Assembly: GCA_029778945.1 (NCBI GenBank)
Contig: JAKPBN010000417.1
Location: 1 to 34,276, forward strand
Source: Spirochaetota bacterium
GTDB lineage: Bacteria > Spirochaetota > Spirochaetia > Treponematales > Rectinemataceae
DNA length: 34,276 nucleotides
Direction: 5' to 3'
The first letter of the stretch is position 1; each line of letters begins with the position of its first letter. The translations under genes were made by a program, and so were the position numbers. Shown here in pieces: positions 1,720 to 25,936 of this stretch. The notes beneath the pieces were generated by a model. The model searched no databases and was not told the origin of the DNA. It saw nothing but the letters and a program-made list of their open reading frames with translations.

Positions 1720-1750
1720 TGCCCTGCCCAAGCGCTCCTGGAGGGACAAT

Positions 1751-2697: not shown

Positions 2698-2701
2698 GAC
2701 T

Positions 2702-3538: not shown

Positions 3539-4328
3539 GTCCACGCCCCTTGTCCTGGCCCGGGAGCTCACCGTGGGCTATGGCCTCGAGGCCGTGGTCC
3601 GGGACATCAACCTTGTCGTGGCTCCTGGTGAGAGTCTGGCCCTGGTCGGAGTGAATGGCTCCGGCAAGTCCACCCTCCTCAAGACCCTGGCCGGCCTCCT
3701 GTCTCCCCTGGCGGGACGGCTCGAGGTCCTGGGAGGCCTCGCCGGGGCCAGTCCCCGGAGGGTCGCCTACCTGGGCCAGTTCCACCCTTCCGGCCTCTCC
3801 CTGCCCCTCCGGGCCATCGACGTGGTCCGCATGGCCCGCTTCCCGGCCCTGGGCCTCTTACGCAGGCCCGGGCCCCAGGACGAAAGGGCGGTCCTCGAGG
3901 CCATGGAGGCCGTGGGCATCACCGGCCTCGCCGACCTGCCCCTCTCCCGCCTCTCGGGGGGACAAAAGCAGCGCGTCTTTATCGCCCAGGCCCTGGCCCG
4001 GGAGCCCGAGCTCCTCCTCCTGGACGAGCCGGCCTCGAGCCTCGACGCCGCGGCCATCTCCACCTATCGCGGGATCCTCAAGCGGGCGGCCGCCACGGGC
4101 CTCGGCTCGGTGATAGCCACCCACGACATAGACGAGGCCTCGGCCTGCGACAAGACCCTCCTTCTCGCGGGCAGGGTCGTGGCCTATGGGCCCTCAGCCG
4201 AGGTGCTCAAGCCCCAGGCCCTCCTCGAGACCTTTGGCATAGTGGGACGCTATGAAGAGGGCGGCCTTGTGGCCGTGGGCAGGGCCTGTGACCATTGCCA
4301 CGACGGCGGGCACGAGGGTGAGGACTAG
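3531..4328 (+). CDS. znuC: Zinc/manganese ABC transporter ATPase with His/Cys-rich tail
   Basis: The nucleotide-binding subunit of the metal importer, 265 residues. Walker A is GVNGSGKST (from residue 40), the ABC signature LSGGQ is at 131-135, Walker B is LLLLDEP around 161-167, and the switch histidine is in IATHD (H198). The ATG at 3531 is preceded by GGAGG and overlaps the znuB stop (ATGGCTGA). The frame is open further upstream, but that part shadows znuB. The protein ends in CDHCHDGGHEGED, a tail rich in Cys, His and acidic residues that could bind metal, as seen in some ZnuC proteins. The gene ends seven bases from the convergent PhzF-family gene. Confidence 0.92.
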   Translation: MAESTPLVLARELTVGYGLEAVVRDINLVVAPGESLALVGVNGSGKSTLLKTLAGLLSPLAGRLEVLGGLAGASPRRVAYLGQFHPSGLSLPLRAIDVVRMARFPALGLLRRPGPQDERAVLEAMEAVGITGLADLPLSRLSGGQKQRVFIAQALAREPELLLLDEPASSLDAAAISTYRGILKRAAATGLGSVIATHDIDEASACDKTLLLAGRVVAYGPSAEVLKPQALLETFGIVGRYEEGGLVAVGRACDHCHDGGHEGED

Positions 4329-10892: not shown

Positions 10893-10921
10893 TTGACCCT
10901 CTTCTTGCCTAGGGGTATAGA
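10893..10921 (+). promoter_or_regulatory. Promoter of the flavoprotein gene pair
   Basis: TTGACC (10893-10898) and TATAGA (10916-10921) are separated by 17 bases, about 30 bases upstream of the ATG at 10955. The spacer holds an imperfect dyad, ACCCT...AGGGGT, where a MerR-type protein could bind. The 17-base spacing is not the 19-20 bases usual for MerR-activated promoters, so control by the neighbouring MerR protein is uncertain. The rest of the 10683-10954 gap is AT-rich and shows no gene. Confidence 0.55.
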
Positions 10922-10954
10922 CTCGGCACGACTTCGAAAACTCGAGGAGGATCC

Positions 10955-13006
10955 ATGAAGCTTCGAACCATCGCCGCCCTGGCGGCAGCCCTTATCCTGG
11001 CCGGCTGCAGCTCCAATCCCGGCGGCAAATCCGCCAGGATCGATGGGGACTACGAAGGCAGCGCCTATGGCATGCAAGGCCTGATCAAGGTCTCCGTAAC
11101 CCTCGCCAAGGGCAAAATCGAGGGGATCAAGATACTCTCGGCCAAGGAGACACCGAGTGTCACCAAGGTGGCCTTTGAGCGCATTCCCCAGCGCATCATC
11201 GAGACCCAGAGCCTCAAGGTCGACGCCGTCGTGGGGGCGACTCTTGCGAGCAATGGCATCAAGAACGCGGTGGCCAAGGCCCTCCAGAACGCCGGCATGG
11301 ACGCCGACGTCTTCCGGGCCAGGACGGTCAAGGCTGTGCCCAGGCCGGCCCAGGCCTGGAAGGCCGATGTCCTCGTGATGGGCGGCGGAGGAGCGGGGCT
11401 CACCGCGGCGATCAGCGCGGCCCAGCAGGGCTGCAAGGTGATCCTGATCGAGAAGGGCTCGGTGCTCGGCGGAAACACCATGATGGCGGGCTCAGCCTAC
11501 AATGCGGTGGATCCCGAGGCCCAGGCCACCATGGTCCTCTCCAAGGCCCAGAAGGAGATGCTTGACTCCTACCTGGCCCTCGACCCCGCCAGCCCGGCCC
11601 TCAAGTTCGACTCCTATCCCGAGTGGAAGCCTGTCCTGGCCCAGCTGAAGGAGGATATCGCGGCCTTCTATGCCAAGAACCAGGGAAAGACCGCGGGCCT
11701 CGACCTGCCGGGCTTCGATTCCATCGCCCTCCACATGTGGCATATCTATACCGGCGGGCTGCGCAAGCTCGATGACGGGACCTGGATCGCCCCGAGGCTG
11801 GACCTTGCCCGCACCCTGGCCTCCAGGTCCCTGGAGAGCTTCAAGTGGATGGATAGCGTGGGCCTCAAGGCCTCCTATGGCGGCAGCTCCAAGTACGGCA
11901 ATGCCCCGGGCCTGGGGACCGTCCTGGGAGCCATGTGGCCCAGGACCCATAGCTTTGCCTCGGGCGTGGAGAGGATCGCCCAGCTCGAGAAGAAGGCCAG
12001 GGAAGTCGGCGTGGAGATCTACACCGAGACCCGGGGCACGGAGCTTGTCATGGGCCCGGAGTCCAGGATCATCGGCGCAAAGGCCGTGCAGACCGACGGC
12101 AGCCAGGTCACGATCAGCGCGGCCAAGGGCGTCGTCCTTGCGACCGGCGGCTATTGCGCGAATCCCATCATGGTCAAGAAGTACGACAAATACTGGGGCA
12201 AGGACCTCACGGACCATACCCTGACCACCAACATGGGCACGAATACCGGTGACGGAATCGTCATGGCCGAGCAGCGCGGAGCCGCCCTCTTTGGGATGGA
12301 GATAGCCCAGATGATGCCCTCATCCTCCCCCACCAAGGGGACCATGACGGACGGCATCTGGGGTGACGCCTCGGAGCAGATCTGGATCGACGGCAAGGGC
12401 AAGCGCTTTGTCAACGAGTACGCGGAGCGGGATGTCCTGGCGAAGGCCTCCCTCCAGCTGGATCGGGGCGTCTTCTACATAATCTATGCCGGCCGCGGTG
12501 ACCCCACCAAGCCCGCCAACAAGCTCAAGGGCACCGACTACAAGTCTGTCGCCTCCATGGTCGAGAGCGGGGACATCTGGTATGGCTCGAACCTCGCCGA
12601 GCTGGCCAAGGCCAGCCAGAAGAGCGCCGCCGGGAGCGCACCGGCCTTCAGCGAGGAGGCTCTCCGGGCCACGATCGAGCAGTACAACAGCTATGTCGCG
12701 GCCCAGAAGGACTCCGACTTCGGAAAGGGCGTCCTGGCCGGCGCCATCGACCTGGCGTATATCGAGTCCCATCCCGAGGTCGGCATCTGCATCAGCCCCC
12801 GCAAGGCTTCCCTCCACCACACCATGGGGGGAGTCCTCATCGATACCGAGGCCCGGGTCCTGGACGGCCAGGGCAAGGCCATCCCCGGACTCTGGGCGGC
12901 CGGTGAGGTCACCGGGGGTATCCACGCCGGCAACCGCCTGGGCGGCAACGCGATCGCGGATATCTTTACCTTCGGAAGGATCGCCGGGCTCAACGCCTCC
13001 AAGTAG
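10955..13006 (+). CDS. Exported FMN/FAD flavoprotein of the fumarate reductase (flavocytochrome c) family
   Basis: A 683-residue lipoprotein: a short leader ends in lipobox LAGC (C18). Residues about 30-110 form an FMN-binding domain with an attachment-type motif DAVVGAT, which keeps the threonine that ApbE-type enzymes flavinylate. From about 130 on is an FAD-binding oxidoreductase (VLVMGGGGAGLTAAISAAQQG). Relative to Shewanella fumarate reductase, HHTMGGV (substrate histidine), NRLGGNA (substrate arginine) and the proton-shuttle arginine in NEYAERD are present. The position of the other substrate histidine reads TTNMGTNTGDG (Met for His). This suggests reduction of a C=C bond in an acid other than fumarate, outside the cytoplasmic membrane. 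ATG 10955 follows GAGGAGG. No heme motif is present. Confidence 0.85.
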   Translation: MKLRTIAALAAALILAGCSSNPGGKSARIDGDYEGSAYGMQGLIKVSVTLAKGKIEGIKILSAKETPSVTKVAFERIPQRIIETQSLKVDAVVGATLASNGIKNAVAKALQNAGMDADVFRARTVKAVPRPAQAWKADVLVMGGGGAGLTAAISAAQQGCKVILIEKGSVLGGNTMMAGSAYNAVDPEAQATMVLSKAQKEMLDSYLALDPASPALKFDSYPEWKPVLAQLKEDIAAFYAKNQGKTAGLDLPGFDSIALHMWHIYTGGLRKLDDGTWIAPRLDLARTLASRSLESFKWMDSVGLKASYGGSSKYGNAPGLGTVLGAMWPRTHSFASGVERIAQLEKKAREVGVEIYTETRGTELVMGPESRIIGAKAVQTDGSQVTISAAKGVVLATGGYCANPIMVKKYDKYWGKDLTDHTLTTNMGTNTGDGIVMAEQRGAALFGMEIAQMMPSSSPTKGTMTDGIWGDASEQIWIDGKGKRFVNEYAERDVLAKASLQLDRGVFYIIYAGRGDPTKPANKLKGTDYKSVASMVESGDIWYGSNLAELAKASQKSAAGSAPAFSEEALRATIEQYNSYVAAQKDSDFGKGVLAGAIDLAYIESHPEVGICISPRKASLHHTMGGVLIDTEARVLDGQGKAIPGLWAAGEVTGGIHAGNRLGGNAIADIFTFGRIAGLNASK

Positions 13007-13034: not shown

Positions 13035-13060
13035 GGCGGCCCTGGAAGGGGCCGCCTTTT
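13035..13060 (+). terminator. Intrinsic terminator between the two flavoprotein genes
   Basis: GGCGGCCC (13035-13042) pairs exactly with GGGCCGCC (13049-13056) around a six-base loop and is followed by TTTT. It lies 29 bases after the first flavoprotein stop, so much of that transcript probably ends here. The second gene may then be expressed by read-through or from its own promoter, which I could not locate confidently in 13061-13151. Confidence 0.75.
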
Positions 13061-13151
13061 CCCGCATCAAAGGACAAGCCGTGTCTCCGGGGCGCCACTA
13101 TCGAGGCTCTGGGAGGCGCAAGAAATTCGTAGTGATGAAATGGAGTTGAGC

Positions 13152-15398
13152 ATGAAGAAGAGCCTGGCATTTTTCCTTCCTGTGGCCGTCCTTTGCGCAT
13201 TATGTCTCGCAGGCCTGGGTTGCGCCTCCTCGGAGGCCGGGAAAGGCAGCTATACCCCGGGGACCTACGAGGCGGCCGCCGACGGGTTTGGCGGGGAAGT
13301 GAGGGTCTCCGTCACCGTCAATCGGGATCGCATAACCGCGCTTAGGGCCGATGGCCCGGCCGAGACCCCCGGCATCGGCTCTCGGGCCCTCGAGGAGCTT
13401 CCTGGGCTGATCGTGAAAGCCCAGGGAACCAAGGTCGACAATGTCTCCGGGGCAAGCTACTCGAGCCGCGCCGTGAAGACCGCCACCGACCTCGCCTTGG
13501 CGAAGGCCCGGGGGGAGAGCCCTGTCTCGGCCTCGTTGCGGGACGGAAACTATGCCGCCTCGGCCCGGGGCTTCAGCCTCACGAAGCCCCTGCCCGTGGC
13601 GGTGGAGATCAAGGGTGGCAGGATCGCCACGATTTCCCTGGGAGCCGGCGCGGAGACCGCGGCCATGGCCTTGGTGGTCGAGCGGACCCTCGTTCCCCGC
13701 ATCATCGAGGGGCAATCCCTTGCGGTGGACGCGATCACCGGCGCGACGGCCACCTCCAACGCGGTCAAGGCCGCGGTGCTCGAATGCTGCGTAAAGGCGG
13801 GGGCCAACCCTGCCGCCCTCTATGGTTCCAAGGCTTCTCCGGTAGCGGCCAACGTGGACTATGCCTGCGACGTGGTCGTCGTGGGCATGGGCGGATCCGG
13901 CACGGCCGCGGCCTTGAGCGCGGCCCAGGCTGGAGCCAAGGTCATCGCCGTGGACAAGGCCGCCAAGTGGGGGGGGACGAGCGCCATCACCTCTGGGCCG
14001 ATGGCCGTCAATGCCCCGAGCCAGGTTAAGGCAGAGATCCCCAATTGGATGGACCCCCTCACCAACAAGGCCAGGCTCAAGCCCGCGGGAGAGAACCTTG
14101 TGGACGGGGAAGCCTTGCTGAAGGACTGGCTGGCCTATACCACCGTAGATGGCAAGCAGGGAGCCAAGCCCGAGATTGTCCGGGAGCTCATCGAGAAGTC
14201 CGGGGATACCCTCGATTGGATATCCAGCCTTGGCTTCGCCTTCCAGCCTGCCCGGGGCTTTGTGGGCGGCAAATGGGCCATCTTCTCGCCCTATGTAGGC
14301 GACAAGGCCAGGACCGAGGAGTTTTTCGCCACTGCCTACCGGAAGTTCACCGAGGAACTGGGGGGACGCTGTCTCCTCGAGACTGAGGGGTCCGAGCTTC
14401 TTGTCCAAGGCGGCCAGGTGGTGGGACTCTTAGCCAAGGGACCCAGGGGTGAGAAGGTCACGATCAAGGCCAAGGCCGTCATCCTGGCCACGGGGGGCTT
14501 TGGCGGGAGTCCTGAGATGATGAAGCGCTATCTCGGGGAGGATTGGAAGCTGTATGGCATGGCCCAGAACCAGGGCGACGGGATCTCCATGGCCCTAGCC
14601 CAGGGAGGGGCCAGCTACAACATCGGCATGCCCCCCATGTCCCATTTTGTGGCCCCTCCCTCCATCATCACCAGCTTCCAGGACCCTATGGACAACGACC
14701 TGCCCTACGCGATGATCTGCAGCTCCGAGGCCCTCGCCGTCGACCGGACGGGCAAGCGCTTTACCAACGAGCTGGACATCGCGATGAACGCCTACAAGGT
14801 GGGCTCCCGCTTCTACACGATCTACTCAAAGGAGCAGATCGACATCCTGAGGGAGCGCGGCTTCGGCTTTGCCGCCGGCGGCCGCTACCTGTCCCAGGGA
14901 GGGGTCAAGGCGAACGCGGCCCTCGCGAACATCGATGCCGTCCTGGCCGAGGCCGGCAAGCAGGGCCTGGTCTTCAAGGCGGCGAGCCTCGATGGGCTCG
15001 CCAAGGCGATCGGCGGCGACATGAAGCCGAGCCTCCTCAAGGCCAGCGTGGCTGCCTATGGGGCCGGCATGTCGGCGGGAGACGAATTCGGGAAGCCTGC
15101 GGACCGCCTCGCGCGGCTCGGCGCGCCTAATCCCGGCAGCGAGTACTTTGTCGCCGTCGCGGGAGCGCCCTACATCTACAGCACCTGCGGCGGCCTCGAT
15201 GTTGACGCCACCATGAGGGTGCTCCGCAAGGACGGAAAGCAGATACCTGGGCTGTTCGCCGTCGGCACCGATTCGATGGGCGTGCTGTTCACGGGAAGCA
15301 AGGGCTACGCCAACTATGGCGGGGTCGCCCAGGGCTACGCCTTTGTCTCAGGCCGGATAGCCGGAGCCGCCGCGGCCTCAAGGGCCCAGGGCAGATAG
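13152..15398 (+). CDS. Exported flavoprotein with two FMN-binding domains and a divergent FAD oxidoreductase domain
   Basis: A 748-residue secreted protein, probably a lipoprotein through a relaxed lipobox LGC (about residue 24). Two FMN_bind-type domains follow. The first (about 30-115) has DNVSGAS, with serine where the flavinylated threonine should be. The second (about 125-215) has the canonical DAITGAT. The FAD domain starts at DVVVVGMGGSGTAAALSAAQAG (about 235). The fumarate reductase catalytic residues are missing: HHTMGG is YSTCGG, NRLGGN is GSKGYANYGG, and the shuttle arginine after RFTNE is not evident. It must act on another substrate. ATG 13152 was chosen because GGAG precedes it by seven bases; an in-frame ATG at 13140 lacks a ribosome site. 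Confidence 0.8.
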   Translation: MKKSLAFFLPVAVLCALCLAGLGCASSEAGKGSYTPGTYEAAADGFGGEVRVSVTVNRDRITALRADGPAETPGIGSRALEELPGLIVKAQGTKVDNVSGASYSSRAVKTATDLALAKARGESPVSASLRDGNYAASARGFSLTKPLPVAVEIKGGRIATISLGAGAETAAMALVVERTLVPRIIEGQSLAVDAITGATATSNAVKAAVLECCVKAGANPAALYGSKASPVAANVDYACDVVVVGMGGSGTAAALSAAQAGAKVIAVDKAAKWGGTSAITSGPMAVNAPSQVKAEIPNWMDPLTNKARLKPAGENLVDGEALLKDWLAYTTVDGKQGAKPEIVRELIEKSGDTLDWISSLGFAFQPARGFVGGKWAIFSPYVGDKARTEEFFATAYRKFTEELGGRCLLETEGSELLVQGGQVVGLLAKGPRGEKVTIKAKAVILATGGFGGSPEMMKRYLGEDWKLYGMAQNQGDGISMALAQGGASYNIGMPPMSHFVAPPSIITSFQDPMDNDLPYAMICSSEALAVDRTGKRFTNELDIAMNAYKVGSRFYTIYSKEQIDILRERGFGFAAGGRYLSQGGVKANAALANIDAVLAEAGKQGLVFKAASLDGLAKAIGGDMKPSLLKASVAAYGAGMSAGDEFGKPADRLARLGAPNPGSEYFVAVAGAPYIYSTCGGLDVDATMRVLRKDGKQIPGLFAVGTDSMGVLFTGSKGYANYGGVAQGYAFVSGRIAGAAAASRAQGR

Positions 15399-15493: not shown

Positions 15494-16690
15494 CTAGATC
15501 AGGGAGCGCTTCTTGCCGGCCTCGAGGAGGCCCTTGAGAGTCGCTCGGGGGTCCTTGGACTTGCACAGGAGGATCATCGCCGCGATGATGTAGGGCTTGT
15601 AGCTCGCCTCCATGTAGGTCTCGTCCCGGTAGCGGTCAAAGACCGAGGCCGCGACCTCGCCGGCCTTGCAGGACACGTCGGTGATGTCCGCGGGGAGGCA
15701 ATGCATGTACAAGGCCTTCCCGTTTTTGGTGAGCTTCATCTTCTCCTCGGTGCACTCCCAGTCCTTGAACCTGGCGTTGTTCTCCAGGCACTTCTTCTCC
15801 AGGTCCTTGAGGCCGGCGGAGTCGTTGGCGTGGAGGAGGGGAACCCTCTGCTGCATCACGGAGAAGGGGGCCCAGGACTTGGGATAGACGATGTCGGCGC
15901 CCTTGAAAGCCTCATCCATGGAGTTGACGTGGCTGAACTTGCCACCCGAGGCCGCAGCCTGCTTCTTGGAGAGCTCGACGACCTCGGGGATGAGGTCATA
16001 GCCCTCGGGGTGGGCGAGGACGACGTCCATACCCAGGCGGGTGGCCAGTCCTATGATGCCCTGGGGCACCGAGAGGGGCTTGCCGTAGGAGGGGGAATAG
16101 GCCCAGGTCATGGCGATCTTCTTGCCCTTGAGGCCCTCGAGGCCGCCAAAGCGGTGGGAGAGGTGGAGGAAGTCCGCCATGGACTGGGTGGGGTGGTCGA
16201 TGTCGGACTGGAGGTTGATCACCGCGGGCCGGGAGGGGAGGACTCCGGCCTTGACGCCCTCGTCGAGGGACTTGGCCACCTCGCGCTGGTAGGTGTCGCC
16301 CTCGCCCAGGTACATGTCGTCCCGGATGCCCACGGCCTCGGTGAGGAAGGAGATCATGTTGGCGGTTTCCCTCACGGTCTCGCCATGGGCGATCTGGCTC
16401 TTGCCCTCATCCAGGTCCTGGACATAGAGGCCCAGGAGGTCGCAGGCCGAGGCGTAGGAAAAGCGGGTCCGGGTGGAATTGTCCCGGAAGTTGGAGACCG
16501 CGATCCCCGAGTCCCAGAGGCGGGTGGAGACGTTGGAGTCCCGCAGGGCCCGCAGGGCGTCGGCCACGATAAAGGTGGCCTCGATCTCGTCCCGGCTCTT
16601 TTCCCAGGTAAGGAGGAAGTCCTTGCCCAGCATGTCGATCTTCTTGCCCGCGAGCCCGTCTATCAGGGCGCCTAGCTCTTTCTGGTTCAT
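15494..16690 (-). CDS. ygeW: Knotted carbamoyltransferase YgeW
   Basis: A 398-residue member of the aspartate/ornithine carbamoyltransferase superfamily. The carbamoyl-phosphate loop is STRTR (72-76) and MHCLPADITD (about 337-346) marks the second substrate region. Long insertions and the motif NLQSDIDHPTQSMADFLHL match the YgeW type, found next to selenium-linked xanthine dehydrogenases and purine catabolic genes. It is thought to remove a carbamoyl group from a purine-derived intermediate as carbamoyl phosphate, which can yield ATP through carbamate kinase; no kinase gene is in the window. ATG 16690 follows AAGGAG at six bases; the frame is open 13 codons upstream. It is the last gene of the cluster, 96 bases after xdhD. 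Confidence 0.9.
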   Translation of the reverse strand: MNQKELGALIDGLAGKKIDMLGKDFLLTWEKSRDEIEATFIVADALRALRDSNVSTRLWDSGIAVSNFRDNSTRTRFSYASACDLLGLYVQDLDEGKSQIAHGETVRETANMISFLTEAVGIRDDMYLGEGDTYQREVAKSLDEGVKAGVLPSRPAVINLQSDIDHPTQSMADFLHLSHRFGGLEGLKGKKIAMTWAYSPSYGKPLSVPQGIIGLATRLGMDVVLAHPEGYDLIPEVVELSKKQAAASGGKFSHVNSMDEAFKGADIVYPKSWAPFSVMQQRVPLLHANDSAGLKDLEKKCLENNARFKDWECTEEKMKLTKNGKALYMHCLPADITDVSCKAGEVAASVFDRYRDETYMEASYKPYIIAAMILLCKSKDPRATLKGLLEAGKKRSLI

Positions 16691-16748
16691 CCTTGTCTCC
16701 TTCCGAATGCCGGTATCCGCCTTGGGCAAGATACCTCTTTGTCGTGGA

Positions 16749-16763
16749 CGGCGCTACGCGCCG
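16749..16763. repeat. Hairpin in the xdhD-ygeW intergenic space
   Basis: CGGCGC-TAC-GCGCCG is a perfect six-base-pair hairpin within the largest gap (96 bases) of the downstream part of the operon. It has no U-tract. It could slow decay or tune relative expression of ygeW. Confidence 0.35.
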
Positions 16764-16786
16764 CCATGAGTGCCGGTGGTCCTTAT

Positions 16787-19672
16787 CTAGAGCTTGCCCA
16801 TGGCCCGCAGCACGCGCTCCGGCGTAAAAGGCCATTCCCTCACCCAGGCCCCGCAGGCGTCGTGGATGGCTATGGCTATGGCCGGGGCCGCGCCGTTCAG
16901 GCTTATCTCAGAGACTGACTTGCCGCCGTAGGGGCCTACCGGATCGTCCACGGGCACAAACTCCACGCGGAAGTCCGCGGGCAGGTCCCTGACCGTGGGG
17001 ATCTTGTAGTCGATGAAGTTGGGGTTGACGCAGTTGCCCTTGTCATCAAAGAGCATCTCCTCGTAGAGGGCATGGCCCACGGCCTTGAGGATGCCGCCAT
17101 AGACCTGGCCCAGGGCGAGCTCGGGGTTGATCGGGGTGCCGCAGTCCTGGTAGGCGTGGTAGCGCTCGAGGACTATCTCCCCGGTGCGCTGGTTGACCGC
17201 CACCTGGGCGAAGTGGGCCCCGTAGGGAAAGGCCGAGTGCTCGGTCTTGAAGGAGCCAAAGCCGCAGAGCTCCCCCGGGCCCTCGCCCGTGGTGGTGAGG
17301 TGGCCAAGCTCGGCATAGCTCATCGTCCGGCCCTTCTTGCCGGTGACAATGCCCCCGGGCAGGATGGACAGGTCGGCCACAGGCTCCCCGAGGATAGTGG
17401 CCACCTCGGCGAGGATGCGGCGCTTCAGGTCCTCGGCGGCGAGCTTGGCCGCGCTGCCTGAGAAGAAGGTGCCCGAGCTCGCGTAGGCCCCCTTGTCAAA
17501 GGGCGTCGTGTCCGTGTCCCCGGAGACCACGGCAAAGTCCGCAGGATCGGCCATCAGGACCTCGGCCGCGACCTTGGCCGCCAGGGTGTCGAGGCCCGTG
17601 CCCAGGTCTGCCCCGCCGGAGAGGAGCATAAAGCCCCCGTCGGCCATGAGGCGGATCTCCGCGTTGGCCGCATCCAGGCCCGGGAGGCCCGAGCCCTGCT
17701 GGATGACCACCGATCCCTTGCCCCGGCGCCAGCCCTCGGGGGTCACGGCCTCGTGGGGGCTGGCCCAGGAGAGGCTCTTCCTGCCCCGGGCGATCATGTC
17801 CCCCAGGCCGCATTCGCCCAGGGTCACCGCGGTTCCCTCGCGGCCCTCCCCGAGGCTCCTCAGGATCTCGAGGCGGCTCCCCGAGCGGACCCGGTTTTTC
17901 TCGATCAGGTCGAGCTGGTCCATTCCGAGCTCGGAGGCCAGCTCGGCCAGGGCCGTTTGGAGGGCAAAGGAGCCCTGGGGGGCCCCATAGCCCTGGTAGG
18001 CCCCCGAGGAGGGCAGGTTGGTGTACCAGGTCTTCACGTCAAAGTGGACATTGTCGCAAAGAAGGAGGGGCAGGCTCTTGGAGCAGGCATTCATGGGCAC
18101 CGTGAGGCAGTGCTGGCCGTAGGCCCCGGTGTCCGCGTTGACCCGCATCTCGATGGCGGTCAACTTGCCGTCCCTCTTGGCCCCGAGCTTGACCCCGATC
18201 CTCATGGGATGCCGGGTCCTGGCGGCGATGAATTCCTCGGCCCTGGTGTAGCGGAAGAAGACCGTCTTGCCCGTCTTCCAGGTCAGGTAGGCAGCCACCT
18301 CCTCGAGGCAGATGTCCTGCTTGACCCCAAAGCCACCGCCAACCCTTTCCTTGATCACGTGGACCCGGTTCTCCGCAATGCCCAGGACCCGGGCGGTTAT
18401 GCGCCGGAGGTGCCAGGGCACCTGGGTGGAGGCGTGCATCACAAGGCGGCCCCCCTCCATGCGGGTCAGGACGACATGGGGCTCCATGGGCGTGCAGTGG
18501 ACCCGGGTGGCAGAGTACTCGCGCTCGACCACGACCTCGGCCTCGGCAAAGCCCTTGGCGGTGTCGCCTATCCCGCCGGCCGTGGAGGCCGCCAGGTTGC
18601 GCGCCGGATCCGCGCCGATGGGGAACTGGTAGATGATCGGGTGGTCGGGGCCGCCATAGGCGCCCTCGTCGCCGGAGGTCGCCGATCCCGCCGGGGCCGA
18701 GCCGGCCTTGTAGATAACCTTGCCGGCGTGGACCGGGGCCGCCCCGGGGGCCGAGGCCTCCTCCATGGACAGGACTGGCTTCAGGACCTCGTAGTCCACC
18801 TCGATCGCGGCCAGGGCCGCCAGGGCCTCGGCCTCGCTGTCCGCGAGGACGGCCGCCACCCGGTCACCCACAAAGCGCAGGACCCGGGAGAACATGCGGA
18901 AGTCGTGGGGGGAGGGCTCGGGAAAGCCCTGGCCGGCGGTGTTGTAGACGAGGTCGGGGGTGTTTTCCCAAGTGAGGACCTCGTGGACCCCGGGCATGGC
19001 CTGGGCCCGGCTCGTGTCAATGCTCTTGATAAAGGCCCTGGCGTGGGGGGAGCCTGAGATCTTGAGGACGAGGGCGTCCGCCGGGACCTTGTCCTCCACA
19101 AAGGCGCGCTCTCCCCGGGCCAAGGCCGGGCCATCGAGCTTTTCCCTGCACTTGCCCACATGGCGCAGCTCAGGTCGGAATTCCTCCGCCGGGACCACGA
19201 CGAGGCCGGGGTCCTTGAGCCGGGCCGAGGCGAGGAGGGCCGCGGCGTAGAACTGCTCGTAGCCCGTGCAGCGGCACATGATGCTCGAGAGGGCATCGGT
19301 TATGTCGGCCCGGCTAGGCTCGGGCCGGCGCTCCAGGAGCTTGTGGAGGGCGAGGACTACCGCGGGGGTGCAATAGCCGCACTGGACGCAGCCCGTCTCG
19401 ACCAGGGCCGCCTGGACGACGGAGAGCTTCCTGTCCTTGGAGAAGAAGTCGACGGTATAGACCTCTGCCCCCTCGGCTTGGGGGGATAGGACCTGGCAGG
19501 AGTTGACGATCTTCCCGTCGAGGATCACCGAGCAGAGGCCGCAGGAGCCCTCGCCGTCACAGCCATTGCGGACCGTGGAGATGCCCGCCTTCCTGAGAAG
19601 GTCCCGGAGAGAGAGAGAGGGCTCGGCCTCGAGGCCGACCGGCCGGCCGTTGAGCCTGAAATTCACCTTCAT
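16787..19672 (-). CDS. xdhD: XdhD-like xanthine/purine hydroxylase, fused Fe-S and molybdenum subunits
   Basis: A 961-residue fusion like E. coli XdhD and the selenium-dependent xanthine dehydrogenases. Residues 1-75 form a plant-type [2Fe-2S] ferredoxin (C38, C44, C47, C59). Residues 85-150 hold the second [2Fe-2S] domain (CGYC at 98-101, CRC at 133-135). The rest is the molybdopterin-binding part, with GGGFGVKQD and a late GGKSVSEISLNGAAP where SE aligns with the catalytic glutamate region. There is no FAD domain; the adjacent YgfM-like gene supplies it. The reaction would be hydroxylation of a purine such as xanthine to urate, or the reverse under reducing conditions. ATG 19672 has GAGGAG upstream and overlaps the FAD gene stop by four bases. 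Confidence 0.9.
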   Translation of the reverse strand: MKVNFRLNGRPVGLEAEPSLSLRDLLRKAGISTVRNGCDGEGSCGLCSVILDGKIVNSCQVLSPQAEGAEVYTVDFFSKDRKLSVVQAALVETGCVQCGYCTPAVVLALHKLLERRPEPSRADITDALSSIMCRCTGYEQFYAAALLASARLKDPGLVVVPAEEFRPELRHVGKCREKLDGPALARGERAFVEDKVPADALVLKISGSPHARAFIKSIDTSRAQAMPGVHEVLTWENTPDLVYNTAGQGFPEPSPHDFRMFSRVLRFVGDRVAAVLADSEAEALAALAAIEVDYEVLKPVLSMEEASAPGAAPVHAGKVIYKAGSAPAGSATSGDEGAYGGPDHPIIYQFPIGADPARNLAASTAGGIGDTAKGFAEAEVVVEREYSATRVHCTPMEPHVVLTRMEGGRLVMHASTQVPWHLRRITARVLGIAENRVHVIKERVGGGFGVKQDICLEEVAAYLTWKTGKTVFFRYTRAEEFIAARTRHPMRIGVKLGAKRDGKLTAIEMRVNADTGAYGQHCLTVPMNACSKSLPLLLCDNVHFDVKTWYTNLPSSGAYQGYGAPQGSFALQTALAELASELGMDQLDLIEKNRVRSGSRLEILRSLGEGREGTAVTLGECGLGDMIARGRKSLSWASPHEAVTPEGWRRGKGSVVIQQGSGLPGLDAANAEIRLMADGGFMLLSGGADLGTGLDTLAAKVAAEVLMADPADFAVVSGDTDTTPFDKGAYASSGTFFSGSAAKLAAEDLKRRILAEVATILGEPVADLSILPGGIVTGKKGRTMSYAELGHLTTTGEGPGELCGFGSFKTEHSAFPYGAHFAQVAVNQRTGEIVLERYHAYQDCGTPINPELALGQVYGGILKAVGHALYEEMLFDDKGNCVNPNFIDYKIPTVRDLPADFRVEFVPVDDPVGPYGGKSVSEISLNGAAPAIAIAIHDACGAWVREWPFTPERVLRAMGKL

Positions 19673-20475
19673 GCCAGCTCCTCAGCCCCATAGAGGGCTT
19701 CCGCCACCAGGGCAGCTGCCCTGAGCTCCTTGTAGGCCGAGGAGCCCCGCCAATCCGTCCGGGCATGGAAGAGGGGCCTGGCCGCGGCCTCGATGGCCTC
19801 CCGGGAGGGCAGGGGCCGGCCCTCGAGGAGGCGGGAAAGCTCGGGGAAGAGCCTGGCCCGGGGGCCTAGGCCACCCAGGGCGAGCCGGACTCCCTCCAGG
19901 GCTCCCGTGGGAGCAAGGCGATAGGCGACCGAACAGGTCAGGACCGAGACGTCGCAGGCAGTCCTGGCCAGGCGGGCAAAGGCCGCCCGCGCGCCGGCCA
20001 TGAGGGGCAGCTCGAGCTCGAGGACAAGGCCCTGGGGGGCCTCGAGCCAGGCCTCGAGGGACATGGACTCGGCCTTGGCTGATCTCGTCGAGACCCTCGC
20101 GGTGGCGCCCAAGGCCAGGAGGACGGGGATCAGGCTCGCGCAGGACTTGGCCGCCCCAAGGTTGCCGCCCACGCTCGCCCGGTTGCGCACATTGCGGTTG
20201 ACCATGGATAGGGCCGCGTCCTTCAGGGCCTTGGGCAGGCCCTCGGCCTCCACCAGGTCCTGGAAGCTGGCCCCGGCGCCGATCCGCAGCATCCCGCCGC
20301 CGAGCTCGATCCTCCGGGGAAGGAGGCGGGAAAGGTCGATCAGGGCCTCGGGCTTGTCCCGGTAGTCCCCCGCGAGGAGGAAGGTTCCTCCCGCGAGATA
20401 GGCGGCGCCGGGATGGCTGGCCTTGAGGGAAAGGGCCTCCTCCAGGGAGGCGGGTCGTAGGTATTCTTGCACCAT
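19669..20475 (-). CDS. ygfM: YgfM-like FAD-binding subunit of molybdenum hydroxylase
   Basis: A 268-residue FAD-binding subunit of the CoxM/XdhB type. AAYLAGGTFLLAGDY (about 24-38) corresponds to the flavin phosphate loop and RNRASVGGNLGAAKSCA (about 97-113) to the second FAD motif. It passes electrons between the [2Fe-2S] centres of the XdhD-like enzyme and an acceptor. It lies directly before xdhD with a four-base overlap and starts one base after the upstream deaminase stop, so the three genes are translationally coupled. The ATG at 20475 has only a weak upstream purine run, consistent with coupling. Confidence 0.87.
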   Translation of the reverse strand: MVQEYLRPASLEEALSLKASHPGAAYLAGGTFLLAGDYRDKPEALIDLSRLLPRRIELGGGMLRIGAGASFQDLVEAEGLPKALKDAALSMVNRNVRNRASVGGNLGAAKSCASLIPVLLALGATARVSTRSAKAESMSLEAWLEAPQGLVLELELPLMAGARAAFARLARTACDVSVLTCSVAYRLAPTGALEGVRLALGGLGPRARLFPELSRLLEGRPLPSREAIEAAARPLFHARTDWRGSSAYKELRAAALVAEALYGAEELA

Positions 20476-20476
20476 G

Positions 20477-21853
20477 CTAGTTTAGCCCTGCCTTGGAAAG
20501 GAGTCGGCGGGAGGCCTTGTCGGCTTCCCTGCGGATCTCCTCCTCGTCTGCGCCAACAAGGCGCCGGTTATTGACAATTAGTTTCCCGTCCACGATGACA
20601 TGGTCGGCCCCGTGGTCGTAGCCCGAGAACAGGAGGGAGGCCACGGGGTCAGACATGGCCCCGGCATATTCCATCCTGGTGACGTCGAAGAGGGCAAGGT
20701 CGGCGACCCAGCCCTCGGCTATGGCGCCCACCTTGTCGAAGCCCAGGATCCTGGCCCCGCCCTGGGTCGCGATGGAGAGGACTTCCCGGGCCGTGATCCC
20801 CGCGGAGCCGTAGCGCACCCGCTGGAGGAGGAGGGCCTGCCTGGCCTCGCCGAGCATGTCCGAGGAGTCGTTCGAGGCCGAGCCGTCGACGGCGAGGCCC
20901 ACGGGCACTCCCCGGTCGATCATCTCCCTCACCCTGGCGACGCCCGAGCCCAGGCGCATGTTGGAGGAGGGACAGTGGGCGACCCCGGTCTGGGTCCGGG
21001 CCAGGAGATCGAGCTCCTCGTCATTGAAGTGGATCCCGTGGGCGAACCAGACATCCTGGCCAATGAAGCCGCAGTCCTCCATGAGGCGCAGGGGGCGGCG
21101 ACCGTACATCTTGACGCAGAAGTCGTCCTCGTCGGCGGTCTCCGCGAGGTGGGTGTGGAGCCTGACGCCCCGTTTGCGGGCCAGGTCGGCGGCGTCCCGC
21201 ATGGACTTCTCGGAGACCGAGAAGGGCGAGCAGGGGGCCAGGGCGACCTTGCGCATCGCGTCCGGGGCCGGGTCATGGTACTTCCCGATGGTCTCGTCGC
21301 AGGCCGAGAGGATCGCGTCCTCGTCCTGGACCACCGAGTCCGGGGGCAGCCCCCCGTCCTTCTTGGACCGGGACATGGAGCCTCGGGTCGGCGCAAAGCG
21401 CAGGCCCAGCCGGGAGGCGGCCTTGAACTGCAGGCCCGGGAGGTCGTCCTTGAAGCCCTGGGGGTAGAGGTAGTGGTGGTCGGTGGAGAGGGTGCAGCCT
21501 GTCTTGGCCAGCTCGGCCATCGCGAGCATGGAGGACCAGTAGACCGCCTCCTCGTCCACTCCCTTCCAGACCTCGTAGAGATAGAGGAGCCAGTCGAAGA
21601 GCTTGGCGTTCTGGACCGCCGGGAGGTTCCTGGTCAGGGTCTGGTAGAAGTGGTGGTGGGTGTTCACCAGGCCCGGCAGGACCACGTGGCGCGAGGCATC
21701 CACCACCTGGGCGCCCGCGGGAACCTTTAGCCCCGGACCTATCCGCGCTATGCGGTTTCCCTCGATGAGGATGTCGAGGCCGCCGCGGTCCACGGCCCCG
21801 GCCCCTCCGCCGATCGAGAGACCGACGGAGAGGCAGTCCTTGAGGAGGATCAA
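20477..21853 (-). CDS. Amidohydrolase similar to 8-oxoguanine deaminase
   Basis: A 458-residue ATZ/TRZ-type amidohydrolase with a metal-binding HxH in LPGLVNTHHHFYQTLTR (about residue 60), a histidine in LHTHLAET, one in WFAHGIHF, and the catalytic aspartate in LAVDGSASND. The VNTHHHFYQTLTR...TDHHYLYP pattern resembles characterised 8-oxoguanine deaminases more than SsnA, which is encoded separately at 25937-27328. Deamination of 8-oxoguanine gives urate, which fits the cluster. Guanine or another aminopurine is possible. The likely start is TTG at 21853, preceded by GAGGTGG and overlapping the preceding gene stop (TTGA). The frame is open further upstream without homology. Confidence 0.78.
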   Translation of the reverse strand: MILLKDCLSVGLSIGGGAGAVDRGGLDILIEGNRIARIGPGLKVPAGAQVVDASRHVVLPGLVNTHHHFYQTLTRNLPAVQNAKLFDWLLYLYEVWKGVDEEAVYWSSMLAMAELAKTGCTLSTDHHYLYPQGFKDDLPGLQFKAASRLGLRFAPTRGSMSRSKKDGGLPPDSVVQDEDAILSACDETIGKYHDPAPDAMRKVALAPCSPFSVSEKSMRDAADLARKRGVRLHTHLAETADEDDFCVKMYGRRPLRLMEDCGFIGQDVWFAHGIHFNDEELDLLARTQTGVAHCPSSNMRLGSGVARVREMIDRGVPVGLAVDGSASNDSSDMLGEARQALLLQRVRYGSAGITAREVLSIATQGGARILGFDKVGAIAEGWVADLALFDVTRMEYAGAMSDPVASLLFSGYDHGADHVIVDGKLIVNNRRLVGADEEEIRREADKASRRLLSKAGLN

Positions 21854-23307
21854 CGAGCCACCTCGGCGTTGAACTCCTCGATCATGGTGTCGAGGGCCTT
21901 GGCCTGGGCATGGAGGCCGCCCCAGTAGGCCCTGTGGTCGTCCCACTGGGCCCTGAGCTCGGGAAGCTGCTTGCCAAGCTGCTCGATCCAGGAGAAGTAC
22001 TTGAGGTTGTGGATGCGGCGCTTGTCCATCTGGGAGAGCTCAAGGACATGGTCGATCTGGATGCCCCGGAGCATGTCGAGGTCCCGGTCGGCCTGGCGCT
22101 GGTCATACTTGCCGCGCTCGGCGTTGAGCTCGTCCAGGCGGGAGCCATACATGTCCATGGAGTCGGTAAAGACCGTAAAGACCACATCGTGCTCATCGAG
22201 CTCGTAGTACTTGGCGAACTTGATCGCCGCCAGGGTGTTGCCCACCCCGGAGATGCCCAGCCAGTTGAGCTTGGAGAGGAGCTCGGGGCCGTAGCCGGAC
22301 TCGGCGAGGACCTTCTTTCCGGCCTCGTCGTTGAAGAGGCGGATGAGGCGGATCGGGAGCTCGTCGTCCACGCCGACCGCGGCGTCGGTGTCCCGGATGT
22401 TGTGGATCCAGGGGATGTGCTTGTCTCCGATGCCCTCGATGCGGTGGTCCCCAAAGCCGTTCTCAAGGATGGTCGGGCACTGGAGGGCCTCGGCCACGGC
22501 GACCTTCGCGCCGGGGAAGCTGTCCCGGAGGTAGGAGCCGGCCCCGAGGGTGCCGGCCGAGCCCGAGGAGAAGACACCGCCGGCGATGCGGTCCCCGGGG
22601 CGGGCGATGGCCTTGAAGGCCTCCTCCATCGCGGGGCCGGTCACGGAATAGTGCCAGAGGTGGTTGGGCAGCTGGTCGAACTGGTTGAAGATCACGGCGT
22701 CGGGCCGGGTCCTCTCAAGCTCGATGCACTTGTCGAAGATCTCCTTGACATTGGACTCGCAGCCCGGGGTCGCGATGACTTCCTCGGCCATGGTCTTGAG
22801 CCAGGCGAAGCGCTCCTTGGACATGCCCGCGGGGAGGATGGCCACCGAGGGGCAGGAGAGGAGGCGGGAGATGTAGGCGCCGCCCCGGCAATAGTTGCCC
22901 GTGGAGGGCCAGACGGCCTTCTTCGTCGTGGGGTCGAAGCGGCCGGTGACAAGCTCGGGCAGGAGGCAGGAGAGGGCGGCCCCGACCTTGTGGGCTCCCG
23001 TGGGGAACCACTTGCCGGAGATGCCCACGATGCGCGCCTTGGTGCCGGTCAGCGAGGAGGGGAGCTCCACGAAGTTGACGCCGCCGAACTTCCCGCCCTT
23101 CTCGACGGGCTCGTTGTGCCAGGTGACCCGGAAGAGGTTCCTTGGGTTCACGTCCCAGAGGCCGATCCCGGAGAGCTCCTTCTTGATCGACTCGGGCACC
23201 TTGGAGGGGTCCCTCATCTGGGCATAGGTGGGGAGGATGATGCCCTTTTCCCGGCAGCGCTCGATGTTCTTCTTCCTCTGCTTCTCTTCAACCTTGAGAT
23301 CTATCAT
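21850..23307 (-). CDS. Fold-type II PLP enzyme of unknown reaction (485 aa)
   Basis: A 485-residue pyridoxal-phosphate enzyme of the tryptophan-synthase-beta/cysteine-synthase fold. The Schiff-base lysine lies in PTGAHKVGAA (K107), the substrate-binding loop is STGN (135-138), and a glycine-rich phosphate loop follows (GGVFSSGSAGTLGAG). It is longer than YgeX diaminopropionate ammonia-lyase (about 400 residues) and does not look like it; it has a roughly 100-residue C-terminal helical extension. Position between the YgeY/threonine-synthase-like genes and the deaminase suggests a beta-elimination or ammonia-lyase step on the last purine-derived amino acid, an inference. ATG 23307 is preceded by AAGGTGG; a GTG at 23316 is an alternative. 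Confidence 0.78.
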   Translation of the reverse strand: MIDLKVEEKQRKKNIERCREKGIILPTYAQMRDPSKVPESIKKELSGIGLWDVNPRNLFRVTWHNEPVEKGGKFGGVNFVELPSSLTGTKARIVGISGKWFPTGAHKVGAALSCLLPELVTGRFDPTTKKAVWPSTGNYCRGGAYISRLLSCPSVAILPAGMSKERFAWLKTMAEEVIATPGCESNVKEIFDKCIELERTRPDAVIFNQFDQLPNHLWHYSVTGPAMEEAFKAIARPGDRIAGGVFSSGSAGTLGAGSYLRDSFPGAKVAVAEALQCPTILENGFGDHRIEGIGDKHIPWIHNIRDTDAAVGVDDELPIRLIRLFNDEAGKKVLAESGYGPELLSKLNWLGISGVGNTLAAIKFAKYYELDEHDVVFTVFTDSMDMYGSRLDELNAERGKYDQRQADRDLDMLRGIQIDHVLELSQMDKRRIHNLKYFSWIEQLGKQLPELRAQWDDHRAYWGGLHAQAKALDTMIEEFNAEVAR

Positions 23308-23370
23308 GTATTCCACCTTCCTTCCAGTATTGGGACCCGCCTACCGCAGGCTCCGTAAAGCATTCAATCA

Positions 23371-23520
23371 TTCACCACGGAGACACGGAGGACACGGAGA
23401 AAGAGGCAGGAAGAATAGAATAAAATATTACTATATCTATTAATTTCTCCCGCTTTTCCTCTCGGAGAATGGCGTTGGGCCTCTCCTTTCCGTGATCTCC
23501 ATGCCTCCGTGGTAAATTCA
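23371..23520. repeat. CACGGAG inverted-repeat element in an operon gap
   Basis: The left arm (23371-23400) contains three spaced CACGGAG units. The right arm (23482-23520) is its imperfect reverse complement over nearly 40 bases (TTTACCACGGAGGCATGGAG read on the minus strand). Between them lie about 80 bases with an AT-rich core (23416-23446), unlike the surrounding GC-rich genes. Similar CACGGAG intergenic repeats are known in many bacterial genomes. The element fills most of the only long gap (23308-23539) in the purine operon. It could be a MITE-like insertion. It might terminate, process or re-start the transcript. I could not identify a convincing promoter in it. Confidence 0.7.
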
Positions 23521-23539
23521 TTTATAGGTTCTCCTGTTT

Positions 23540-24730
23540 CTATTCCAGTCCGAGGCCCTTCATGGCGGACTTGATGTCCTTGAGGCCTGAGCCGGTTATC
23601 AGCAGCACCACGATCGCGTCCTTGGCTATCTCTCCCCGGGCCTTGAGGAAGCCCGCCAGGGCCGCGCTCGAGGAAGGCTCGGCGAAGAGGCCTGCCTTTG
23701 ACGCCAGGATGCCCTGGGCCTCCAGGATCTCCTCGTCCGAGACCACCAGGGCCCGGCCCCCATGCTTTTTCAGCTTGGAGAGGGCGTGGGCGCCGTTGCG
23801 GGGCACATCGACACTGATGGAGTCCGCGACCGTAGAGGACGAGACAGGCCTGCCAAAGCCGCCTTCCGCCAGGGCCGTGGCTATGGCCTTCGAGCCCTCG
23901 GCCTGGGCTGCCCAGATCCTGGGCATGCGCTTTATGCGGCCGAGCTTGATGAGGTCCTCAAAGCCCTTGTAGACGCCGGCTATGATGACCCCGTCCCCGG
24001 TGGGCACAAAAACCTCGTCCGGGGAGGCCCAGCCCTCGCCAGGGCCTGCGCCTCCGGCGGCGCCTAGTTGCTTTGCGATCTCAAAGGACACGGTCTTCTT
24101 GCCCTCGATGGTGAGGGGGTTGTAGGCCGTGTTCCTGGAGAGGGTGCCGGTCTTGTCCGAGTAGGCGAGGGACTCCTCGAAGGCCTGGTCATAGTTGCCC
24201 TTGACCGGATAGAGGTCGCCCCCGTACTGGAGGACCTGGACCCTCTTGGCCACCGGCGCCGCCTCGGGGAGGAAGACCGTGATCTTAAGTCCCGCCGCCG
24301 CCCCGACCCCAGCCATGGAGGAGGCCGCGTTGCCCGTGGAGGCCAGGACTATCTCCTTGATCCCCTCCCGCCGGGCAAAGGCGGCCACAAGGTAGCTCGC
24401 CCTGTCCTTGAATGAGCCCGTGGGCTCGCAGGTGTCATCCTTGAGGAAGAGCCCGGGAAAGCCCAGTTCGGCCCGCAATCGCTCGGGTGCCCAAAGTGGG
24501 GTATCCCCCACAGGAATGGCCGGGAAATAGCGGGGCTCGACCGGGAGGGGTATCGCATAACGGGTGTCCAGATAGTCGACCCCGCTAGGTTCCCCCTCCC
24601 AGACGCACTCGAGGACACCCTCGAGGGGCATGTCTACTCCGCGCTTGGCGGCGCAGGGACCGCAGAGGTAGCGGCTCTTCTCCAAAGGGTATTCAGCCCC
24701 GCAGGAGGGGCAGCGGTAGGACCATTTCAT
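23540..24730 (-). CDS. Threonine-synthase-like PLP enzyme with N-terminal zinc ribbon
   Basis: A 396-residue fold-type II PLP enzyme. An N-terminal zinc ribbon (C7, C10, C23, C26) precedes a threonine-synthase-type domain with the PLP lysine in GSFKDR (K108), the substrate loop STGNAA (131-136) and a phosphate loop VPTGDGVIIAG. Such proteins are annotated threonine synthase, but many with this zinc ribbon act on other beta-substituted amino acids. In this operon it is more likely a purine-pathway lyase than threonine synthesis, as no hom or thrB gene accompanies it. Start ATG 24730 overlaps the ygeY stop by four bases. The upstream open frame is a shadow of ygeY. Confidence 0.82.
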   Translation of the reverse strand: MKWSYRCPSCGAEYPLEKSRYLCGPCAAKRGVDMPLEGVLECVWEGEPSGVDYLDTRYAIPLPVEPRYFPAIPVGDTPLWAPERLRAELGFPGLFLKDDTCEPTGSFKDRASYLVAAFARREGIKEIVLASTGNAASSMAGVGAAAGLKITVFLPEAAPVAKRVQVLQYGGDLYPVKGNYDQAFEESLAYSDKTGTLSRNTAYNPLTIEGKKTVSFEIAKQLGAAGGAGPGEGWASPDEVFVPTGDGVIIAGVYKGFEDLIKLGRIKRMPRIWAAQAEGSKAIATALAEGGFGRPVSSSTVADSISVDVPRNGAHALSKLKKHGGRALVVSDEEILEAQGILASKAGLFAEPSSSAALAGFLKARGEIAKDAIVVLLITGSGLKDIKSAMKGLGLE

Positions 24731-25935
24731 GCGTGCTTGGCCAGGGAATAGGCCAGGGAGGCATAGAAGGCCGAGGCTATCTCGAGGTCGTCGATCCGGT
24801 TGATCTCGTTGGGGGCATGGGCCTGGGACTCGTCTCCGGGGCCAAAGCCAATGCAGGGGATCTGGTGCCGGCCGCAGACGGCCACGCAGTTGGTGGAGAA
24901 GGTCCACTTGTCCACGACGGGCTTCTTGGAGTAGAGGCCTACATAGGCTTCCTCTCCGGCGGCCACGAGGGGGTGGTTGGCGGGGATCTTCCAAGTGGGG
25001 AAGTAGAGCTCCTGCTTGTAGAGGAGGCCCGTGTAGGCGGGCTGGGCATACTCGGGCATCTTCACAGAGAACTTGTCCACTCCGGCGGCCGTGAGGGCCT
25101 TTTCGACCTGGGAGATGGCGAGCTTGTCGTCCTCCCCCCAGGTGAGGCGGCGGTCGCAGTAGAGCATGGCCTGGTCGGGGACGGCGCACTGGGAGGGGCC
25201 GTGGACCTTGATCTGGGAGACCACGATCGTGCCCTTGCCGAGGAAGCCGTCATCGTCGGGCTTGAGCTCGGTGTTGAGCTTCTCCAGGGCCAGGGCGGCC
25301 CGGGCGGCCTTGTAGGCGGCGCTCTCCCCGCGCTCGGGGGCCGAGCCGTGGCAGGAGATGCCCTTGATGTCTATCTGGATCTCCATGCGTCCCCGGTGGC
25401 CGCGGTAGAGCCTGCAGCTTGTGGGCTCCGTGGACACGAGGAAGTCGGGGACGAATTTCTCCTCCTCGATGAGGTATTTCCAGCAGAGGCCGTCGCAGTC
25501 TTCCTCGATGGTGGTAAAGGCGAACCAGACCGTGAAATCCCCGTCATAGGCCGCTTCCTTGAGGATCCGGGCCGCGGTGATCATCGAGGCGGCTCCGCCC
25601 AATTGGTCCGAGGAGCCCCGGCCATGGACAAGTCCGTCCTTTATGAGGCCCGAGTGGGGAGGGTTCTTCCACTGGCTGGGATCGCCAACCCCGACGGTGT
25701 CGATGTGGGCGTCAAAGACCAGCTTCTTCTTGCCCTTGCCCACCCGGCCAAGGAGGGACCCGAGGCCGTCGATATGGACATCCTCCATCCCGGCCTCTTC
25801 GCAGAGCTTCTTGAGGAGGAGGACCCTTTCCTTCTCAGTGCAGGAAAAACCCGGCACCTGGATCATCTTGGAGAGATTCTGCGCGCTGTAGTCCCGGTAC
25901 TTCTTCGCCTTCTCGAGAATGTCCTTGGAATTCAT
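24727..25935 (-). CDS. ygeY: YgeY family M20 metallohydrolase
   Basis: A 402-residue M20 peptidase/deacylase-type dizinc enzyme. Metal ligands are visible in FDAHIDTVG (H and the paired Asp), RGSSDQLGG (bridging Asp) and TTIEEDCDG (general-base glutamate), with GHRGRMEIQIDIKGISCHGS marking the lid domain. This is the YgeY selenium-metabolism-linked subfamily, a constant member of the anaerobic purine cluster, where it probably hydrolyses an amide of a ring-opened intermediate. ATG 25935 follows GAGGAG at five bases and lies one base after the ssnA stop. It overlaps the following threonine-synthase-like gene. Confidence 0.9.
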   Translation of the reverse strand: MNSKDILEKAKKYRDYSAQNLSKMIQVPGFSCTEKERVLLLKKLCEEAGMEDVHIDGLGSLLGRVGKGKKKLVFDAHIDTVGVGDPSQWKNPPHSGLIKDGLVHGRGSSDQLGGAASMITAARILKEAAYDGDFTVWFAFTTIEEDCDGLCWKYLIEEEKFVPDFLVSTEPTSCRLYRGHRGRMEIQIDIKGISCHGSAPERGESAAYKAARAALALEKLNTELKPDDDGFLGKGTIVVSQIKVHGPSQCAVPDQAMLYCDRRLTWGEDDKLAISQVEKALTAAGVDKFSVKMPEYAQPAYTGLLYKQELYFPTWKIPANHPLVAAGEEAYVGLYSKKPVVDKWTFSTNCVAVCGRHQIPCIGFGPGDESQAHAPNEINRIDDLEIASAFYASLAYSLAKHA

Positions 25936-25936
25936 G

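Follow-up and report, generated by a model that had tools for sequence, protein, structure and literature searches.

Proteins that combine FMN_bind and fumarate-reductase-like domains are numerous, some 3,000 having been counted in 2021, and the excerpted text of the same study states that, for many of the superfamily's enzymes, the substrate is unknown (PMC8238504). The multi-flavinylated extracytosolic proteins described in those excerpts carry PF04205 and PF00890 domains, with flavinylation sites that follow the published ApbE motif, [S/T]GA[S/T]. Serine is an established site: in DUF3570 proteins it was revealed by Ser-to-Ala replacement (PMC8238504), and in two other classes either Ser or Thr is needed at the flavinylation position (PMC11334425, excerpted). 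For the urocanate reductase UrdA, replacements of R411, R560 and D388 abolish activity (PMC7921117, excerpted). VprA, an enzyme that reduces vinylphenols under LysR control, offers with VprR a precedent for a regulator beside an alkene reductase (PMC10295242, excerpted).

Here, we describe P0001, a gene for a flavoprotein with two FMN_bind domains and a FAD domain, found in a stretch of 34,276 nucleotides from a Spirochaetota genome (hereafter, the window; Table 1). P0001 encodes a real, intact and conserved flavoprotein, which has a known architecture and a distinct active site. Our searches of the open-licence literature, which could not name the clade to which P0001 belongs, found no description of it.

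Table 1. Features of the window around P0001
Feature	Position	Strand	Basis or remark
MerR-family regulator, divergent from P0002	9873..10787	-	PF13411, 5.8e-12
Promoter-like TTGACC-N19-TAGACT in the MerR/P0002 gap	10893..10923	+	By eye also N17-TATAGA
P0002, 683-aa FMN-FAD paralogue	10955..13006	+	Retains R/H/R: R492, H622, R661
GC hairpin then TTTT in the P0002/P0001 gap, possible terminator or attenuator	13035..13056	+	Sequence and folding
P0001, 748-aa FMN-FMN-FAD flavoprotein	13152..15398	+	ORF without inner stop
N-terminus of P0001 to Cys24, signal/lipoprotein-like	13152..13223	+	Read from sequence and homologues
FMN_bind domain 1	13284..13499	+	PF04205, 52.4 bits (cut-off 22); site DNVSGAS
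Ser102, FMN site 1	13455-13457	+	DNVSGAS motif
FMN_bind domain 2	13587..13787	+	PF04205, 34.8 bits (cut-off 22); site DAITGAT
Thr199, FMN site 2	13746-13748	+	DAITGAT motif
FAD domain of P0001	13869..15365	+	PF00890 residues 240-713; TIGR01813 residues 240-738
His498, hinge region	14643..14645	+	Invariant in 15/15 clade members
APYIYSTCGGLDV block replacing HHTMGG region, with Tyr676 (15/15)	15165..15203	+	Alignment
Block with DSMGVLFTGSKGYANYGG replacing NRLGGN region; Tyr719 15/15, Lys717 14/15	15264..15329	+	Alignment

Architecture and FMN Sites

The two FMN domains and the FAD domain of the original prediction were recovered by Pfam, as two stretches of PF04205 followed by PF00890. With two [S/T]GA[S/T] sites, P0001 has the composition of the multi-flavinylated fumarate-reductase-like proteins. 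An in-frame ATG at 13140 would lengthen the protein; we favour the start at 13152 because of a GGAG at 13142-13145. Judged by eye, the N-terminus is hydrophobic and contains Cys24, which is preceded by LG and thus forms an atypical lipobox, while more typical ones (AGC or AAC) are seen in several homologues, such as L064, L066, L067 and L111. A place on the cell surface, as had been proposed, does not follow from this: the lipoprotein-like N-termini of many homologues fit a periplasmic lipoprotein too, and in a two-membrane organism a lipoprotein may be merely periplasmic.

Serine at one of the FMN positions had been pointed out in the original prediction. The residue is indeed there, at the first site, and is no anomaly, since serine falls within the published ApbE motif and recurs in the clade: the first FMN domain is found in 12 of the 15 members, where the site ends in Ser in five (P0001, L046, L068, L110 and L113) and in Thr in seven. 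The idea that the double FMN array is peculiar to the class of P0001 was likewise rejected, as five proteins of 831-854 aa (L074, L076, L077, L079 and L080) have, by motif, two FMN sites ahead of a canonical HHTMGG/NRLGGN domain. The genome of P0001 gave three ApbE, three NQR2/RnfD and twelve FMN_bind matches, of which three are in P0001 and P0002. Covalent flavinylation of P0001 at its FMN sites is predicted.

Two Residue Classes in the Family

In the alignment, the HHTMGG region of P0001 reads YIYSTCGG and the NRLGGN region reads GSKGYANYGG with a short insertion. The column of the proton-shuttle Arg (UrdA R411) holds a gap in the MAFFT alignment and Ala544 in the profile-profile alignment. 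As the original prediction had it, therefore, the shuttle Arg, the HHTMGG His and the NRLGGN Arg are all missing from P0001; to call them lost is misleading, because the entire clade is without them. Given these absences, reduction of fumarate or urocanate by the known mechanism is unlikely.

This absence is wider still. We compared 63 related proteins, taken as ORFs at a BLAST E-value of 1e-10 with duplicates excluded; since they were collected for their similarity to P0001 and NF053717, with near-copies among them, the two residue classes are not fairly sampled by the following counts. All three residues (R/H/R) are present in 29 of the 63, and the His and the second Arg are missing from 33, 31 of which lack all three. 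In the other two, L023 and L024, which are among the best NF053717 matches, the first column is occupied by an Arg, possibly an effect of the alignment. One sequence (L021) is cut short. The tree of 61 rows was built by a quick method, with long-branch warnings, after removal of the R/H/R columns, of L021 and of a second L012 ORF. On this tree the residue class label needs a single change, with a support of only 74 for the dividing branch. P0001 is placed in a clade of 10 (SH-aLRT 100), and P0002 stands on the opposite side of the tree with all three residues. Such a topology indicates that the adjacent genes are deep paralogues with different active sites. We rejected the possibility that P0001 is a recently decayed fumarate reductase on two grounds, namely the class-wide absence of the residues and the single change on the tree.

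Paralogues of this kind also stand together elsewhere. At L073:408-4389 a clade member adjoins another FMN-FAD paralogue; the 2.7-Mb genome G053 has 27 stretches matching P0001, that is, many FMN/FAD reductase paralogues, and in one of its loci (L082) two of them stand in tandem. AlphaFold, run on an alignment of three sequences (P0001, P0002 and one L003 ORF), gave no usable model (mean pLDDT 38.2, pTM 0.38).

Conserved Residues of the Clade

For the clade itself we aligned 15 members from 13 genomes with six family codes; five of these, L113 being the most divergent, were added by profile and are absent from the tree. Positions invariant in all 15 members of the FAD part include Asn490, His498, Glu540, Tyr676, Asp683, Asp707 and Tyr719, while Lys717 is replaced by Glu in L109. 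Seven blocks were then compared with 2000 random windows of equal length in 14 sequences, the near-copy L112 being omitted. Mean conservation was highest in the ATGGF block (441-453; 0.80), followed by residues 700-730 (0.77), residues 672-684 (0.76), the hinge (487-500; 0.75) and two FAD-binding blocks (0.73 and 0.72); the former Arg loop had 0.57, and the FAD part as a whole 0.59. The C-terminal signature block (700-730) is thus second to ATGGF in its mean but ranks first when each block is set against windows of equal length: its value was reached by 0.15% of the random windows, that of ATGGF by 2.2%, those of the hinge and 672-684 by about 5%, and that of the Arg loop by 48%.

The FAD part also gave low dN/dS values (Nei-Gojobori), at 0.13 and 0.11 in two close pairs of a single genus; in P0001/L064, a pair whose synonymous sites approach saturation, the value was 0.25. 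The FMN part was laxer (0.21, 0.20 and 0.48). Missing catalytic residues and conservation of the clade's own are both read directly from the sequences, and the conserved C-terminal block argues for a functional active site rather than a pure relay.

Relation to Known Families

The curated models nearest to P0001 are those of vinylphenol reductase, followed by tricarballylate dehydrogenase and flavocytochrome c; among the matches listed (25 of 44 families), P0001 reached no family cut-off. For VprA (NF053717) it scored 171.7 bits (E 2.5e-50), clearly missing the cut-off of 600; for TcuA, 135.4 bits (E 2.4e-39) against 369; for TIGR01813, 133.8 against 285.45; and for the ketosteroid dehydrogenase PRK07843, 78.8 against 788. 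The VprA model was the best by E-value, or near it, in all ten scanned members (best 1.1e-54). A match over the NF053717 cut-off was found in none of 297 sampled genomes of the class, and the best NF053717 scorers of our set (L023-L025, 429-435 bits) are on another branch of the tree than P0001.

By sequence, the best solved relatives are UrdA (PDB 6t85; E 6.2e-23 with P0001 and 1.3e-43 with the profile of the clade) and flavocytochrome c3 fumarate reductase, from which P0001 differs in having neither counterparts of R411 and R560 (UrdA numbering) nor the HHTMGG His. Its FAD domain also resembles 3-ketosteroid dehydrogenases and TcuA by profile (3e-22 for a ketosteroid dehydrogenase model), although far below their cut-offs. 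3-Ketosteroid dehydrogenases and TcuA are not known to have FMN_bind domains. Like the multi-flavinylated proteins in the excerpts of PMC8238504, P0001 combines PF04205 with PF00890 and occurs in a genome with ApbE and Rnf/NQR-type genes; its clade differs from them in having its own active-site signature.

Regulators and Gene Neighbourhood

The MerR-family regulator of the window had a weak match as its sole NCBIfam hit (35.4 of 450 bits). In the gap between it and P0002, the TTGAC-N19-TA...T element at 10893 is the only N19 match on both strands of the window; it is outside the list of a sigma-70 scan that takes spacers of 16-18. A long spacer of 19 nt is typical of MerR-controlled promoters. 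The same pattern is found between the MerR and flavoprotein genes in 5/5 MerR loci (the window, L064, L065, L066 and the sister-group locus L071), once in each and nowhere else there, where Pfam identified the MerR gene of the window and those of L064 and L071, and alignment the other two. L064-L066 are all from one genus and therefore represent one case, not three. In these three, the spacer encloses GTGGT(N)ACCAC; the palindrome GTGGTNACCAC has one further occurrence, in L069, at a distance from the flavoprotein gene. Across nine other loci the N19 pattern occurred seven times, twice each in L068 and L069 and once each in L111, L112 and L113.

In the window, the gene directly behind this putative MerR-type promoter is P0002, and P0001 is preceded by a strong hairpin: segment 13030-13062 folds at -21.9 kcal/mol (z -3.91) and is absent from the list of the terminator scan. 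As a GC hairpin with four T, it makes read-through from P0002 likely to be partial, and P0001 would be under the promoter only if transcription reads through in this way. The regulator and promoter anatomy, like the presence of ApbE and Rnf/NQR-type genes, is a matter of sequence.

LysR genes adjoin clade members L046, L068 and L109, and TetR genes adjoin L111 and, by likeness, L112. Overall, 8 of the 15 members have a regulator gene as their immediate neighbour, and that of the window lies one gene further away; regulators were assigned by Pfam in the window, L046, L064, L068, L109 and L111, and by likeness in the other three. Among the neighbours scanned, no directly adjacent regulator gene was recognised in six members, two of which are on short contigs. 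At L068 (1281-8953), and only there, the flavoprotein gene is linked to Rnf genes, being followed on the same strand by those for RnfC, an FMN_bind protein and a Rnf-Nqr subunit, with the LysR gene divergent.

The ligand domains of all the MerR proteins, looked at together, gave matches to solved MerR regulators; the best stretches listed end within profile positions 69-134 of 277, which makes them of little help in guessing the ligand. Since BLAST found no significant similarity between the TIM-barrel gene that neighbours L067 and the one that neighbours L110, we claim no partner gene. At L069:10806-12779, the gene for a Cache-domain chemoreceptor, possibly sensing the same compound, is divergent from the flavoprotein gene.

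The rest of the window contains, at 15494-34156 on the reverse strand, a gene set of the purine/uric-acid type. Its genes for YgeW, a Mo/Fe-S subunit, 8-oxoguanine deaminase, YgeY, SsnA and YgfK exceed the family cut-offs; FAD-subunit, PALP, allantoinase-like and xanthine-dehydrogenase-like genes do not reach theirs. A tie of P0001 to this cluster was rejected, as the cluster is on the other strand, tail to tail with P0001. Metal ABC transporter genes like AztC, AztB and AztA, all three below cut-offs, occupy 1691-4328 on the forward strand.

Spread of the Clade

Our survey of the clade's spread covered genomes of one bacterial class. At an E-value of 1e-45, P0001 was matched in 15 of 291 genomes of the order, eight of which hold clade members by alignment; the clade profile, at 1e-120, was matched in 8 of 394 genomes of the class. 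Scans of viral contigs turned up no sequence of the clade and yielded two partial relatives of canonical type. A genome-contig scan gave one distant locus, from Azomonas, at 25% identity, and in plasmid records the relatives were under 60% identity in 173 of 173 records (29.4% for the best of the 30 listed).

Discussion

Taken together, P0001 is best explained, with a probability of about 0.6, as an envelope-anchored, ligand-induced terminal reductase, which is fed by Rnf/NQR and reduces an acceptor outside the carboxylate clamp. Electrons would exit a membrane complex of the Rnf/NQR type and pass through the two covalent FMNs to the FAD, which would reduce a small organic acceptor. In place of the Arg/His carboxylate clamp, the clade's own residues would hold this acceptor, with His498, Tyr676, Tyr719 and Lys717 as candidates, and it is tempting to suppose a compound of the enone or vinyl-arene type, as with vinylphenol reductase. 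A ligand-sensing regulator, here MerR, would turn on expression at the 19-nt-spacer promoter ahead of P0002, and transcription would read into P0001 past a partial terminator. Flavinylation, the direction of electron flow, the substrate class and operon read-through are all, in this model, predicted. Counted against it were the atypical lipobox, the likeness of the FAD domain to the TcuA and ketosteroid dehydrogenase models, which bears on the direction of the reaction, the hairpin ahead of P0001 together with a promoter that directly serves P0002, the six members in which no adjacent regulator was recognised, the Rnf link at a single locus, the N19 pattern and palindrome at other loci, the origin of L064-L066 in one genus, and the support of 74 for the branch between the two residue classes.

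The main competitor on the reductase side keeps the familiar substrate class: P0001 might still reduce an alpha,beta-unsaturated carboxylate with a clamp rebuilt from, for example, Lys717 and His498. The near-universal presence of both residues (14 and 15 of 15 members) would suit such a clamp, as would the location of His498 in the hinge, the region in which fumarate reductases have a substrate-binding His (PMC7921117, excerpted), and the adjacency of a carboxylate-type paralogue, P0002. Yet L109 has Glu at Lys717, and the register of His498 relative to the known hinge residue differs between two alignments. Moreover, P0001 lacks the HHTMGG His and the two Arg all at once, while in UrdA the replacements cited above abolish activity; we consider a rebuilt clamp unlikely.

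The flow might also be reversed, with P0001 oxidising an envelope substrate as a dehydrogenase of the ketosteroid/tricarballylate type and sending the electrons via its FMNs into Rnf/NQR. All ten scanned members match the TcuA and ketosteroid-dehydrogenase models at an E-value of 1e-20 or better, and the clade profile matches ketosteroid-dehydrogenase structures; P0001 nonetheless remains far under the cut-offs of these families, and the two flavinylated PF00890 enzymes named in the excerpted PMC8238504 are reductases. This reversal seems to us quite unlikely. Of the two roles that the original prediction had offered, a new substrate is the better guess, as the fumarate-reductase catalytic residues are missing. 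The other, a pure relay whose FAD domain stores or passes electrons without catalysis, is very improbable. Two FMN domains and the absence of known-type catalytic residues would fit it, but it is hard to reconcile with clade-specific conservation of the blocks standing at the active-site place (0.77 for 700-730 versus 0.59) or with the low dN/dS of the FAD part in the two close pairs; VprA, the nearest curated family by score, is also an enzyme (PMC10295242, excerpted).

Beyond the single gene, we would tentatively extend the terminal-reductase reading to the clade, at somewhat less than even odds: its members might form a flavin-wired reductase class in which conserved His, Tyr and Lys replace the carboxylate and proton-shuttle set, a neutral acceptor of the enone or vinyl-arene type is respired, sensing is by MerR, LysR or TetR regulators, and Rnf feeds the enzyme directly. 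Read in this way, the class would be an undescribed one, seen so far in six families of one bacterial class.

Overall, the clade of P0001 stands apart within a known enzyme family and can still be recognised as a branch of it; the R/H/R residues divide this family into carboxylate-clamp enzymes and others. For this family the clade offers a handle: its active-site signature is distinct and conserved, its regulator has a promoter that can be identified, and in one case the flavoprotein gene lies immediately before rnf genes. The ligand of the regulator is a route to the substrate of P0001.
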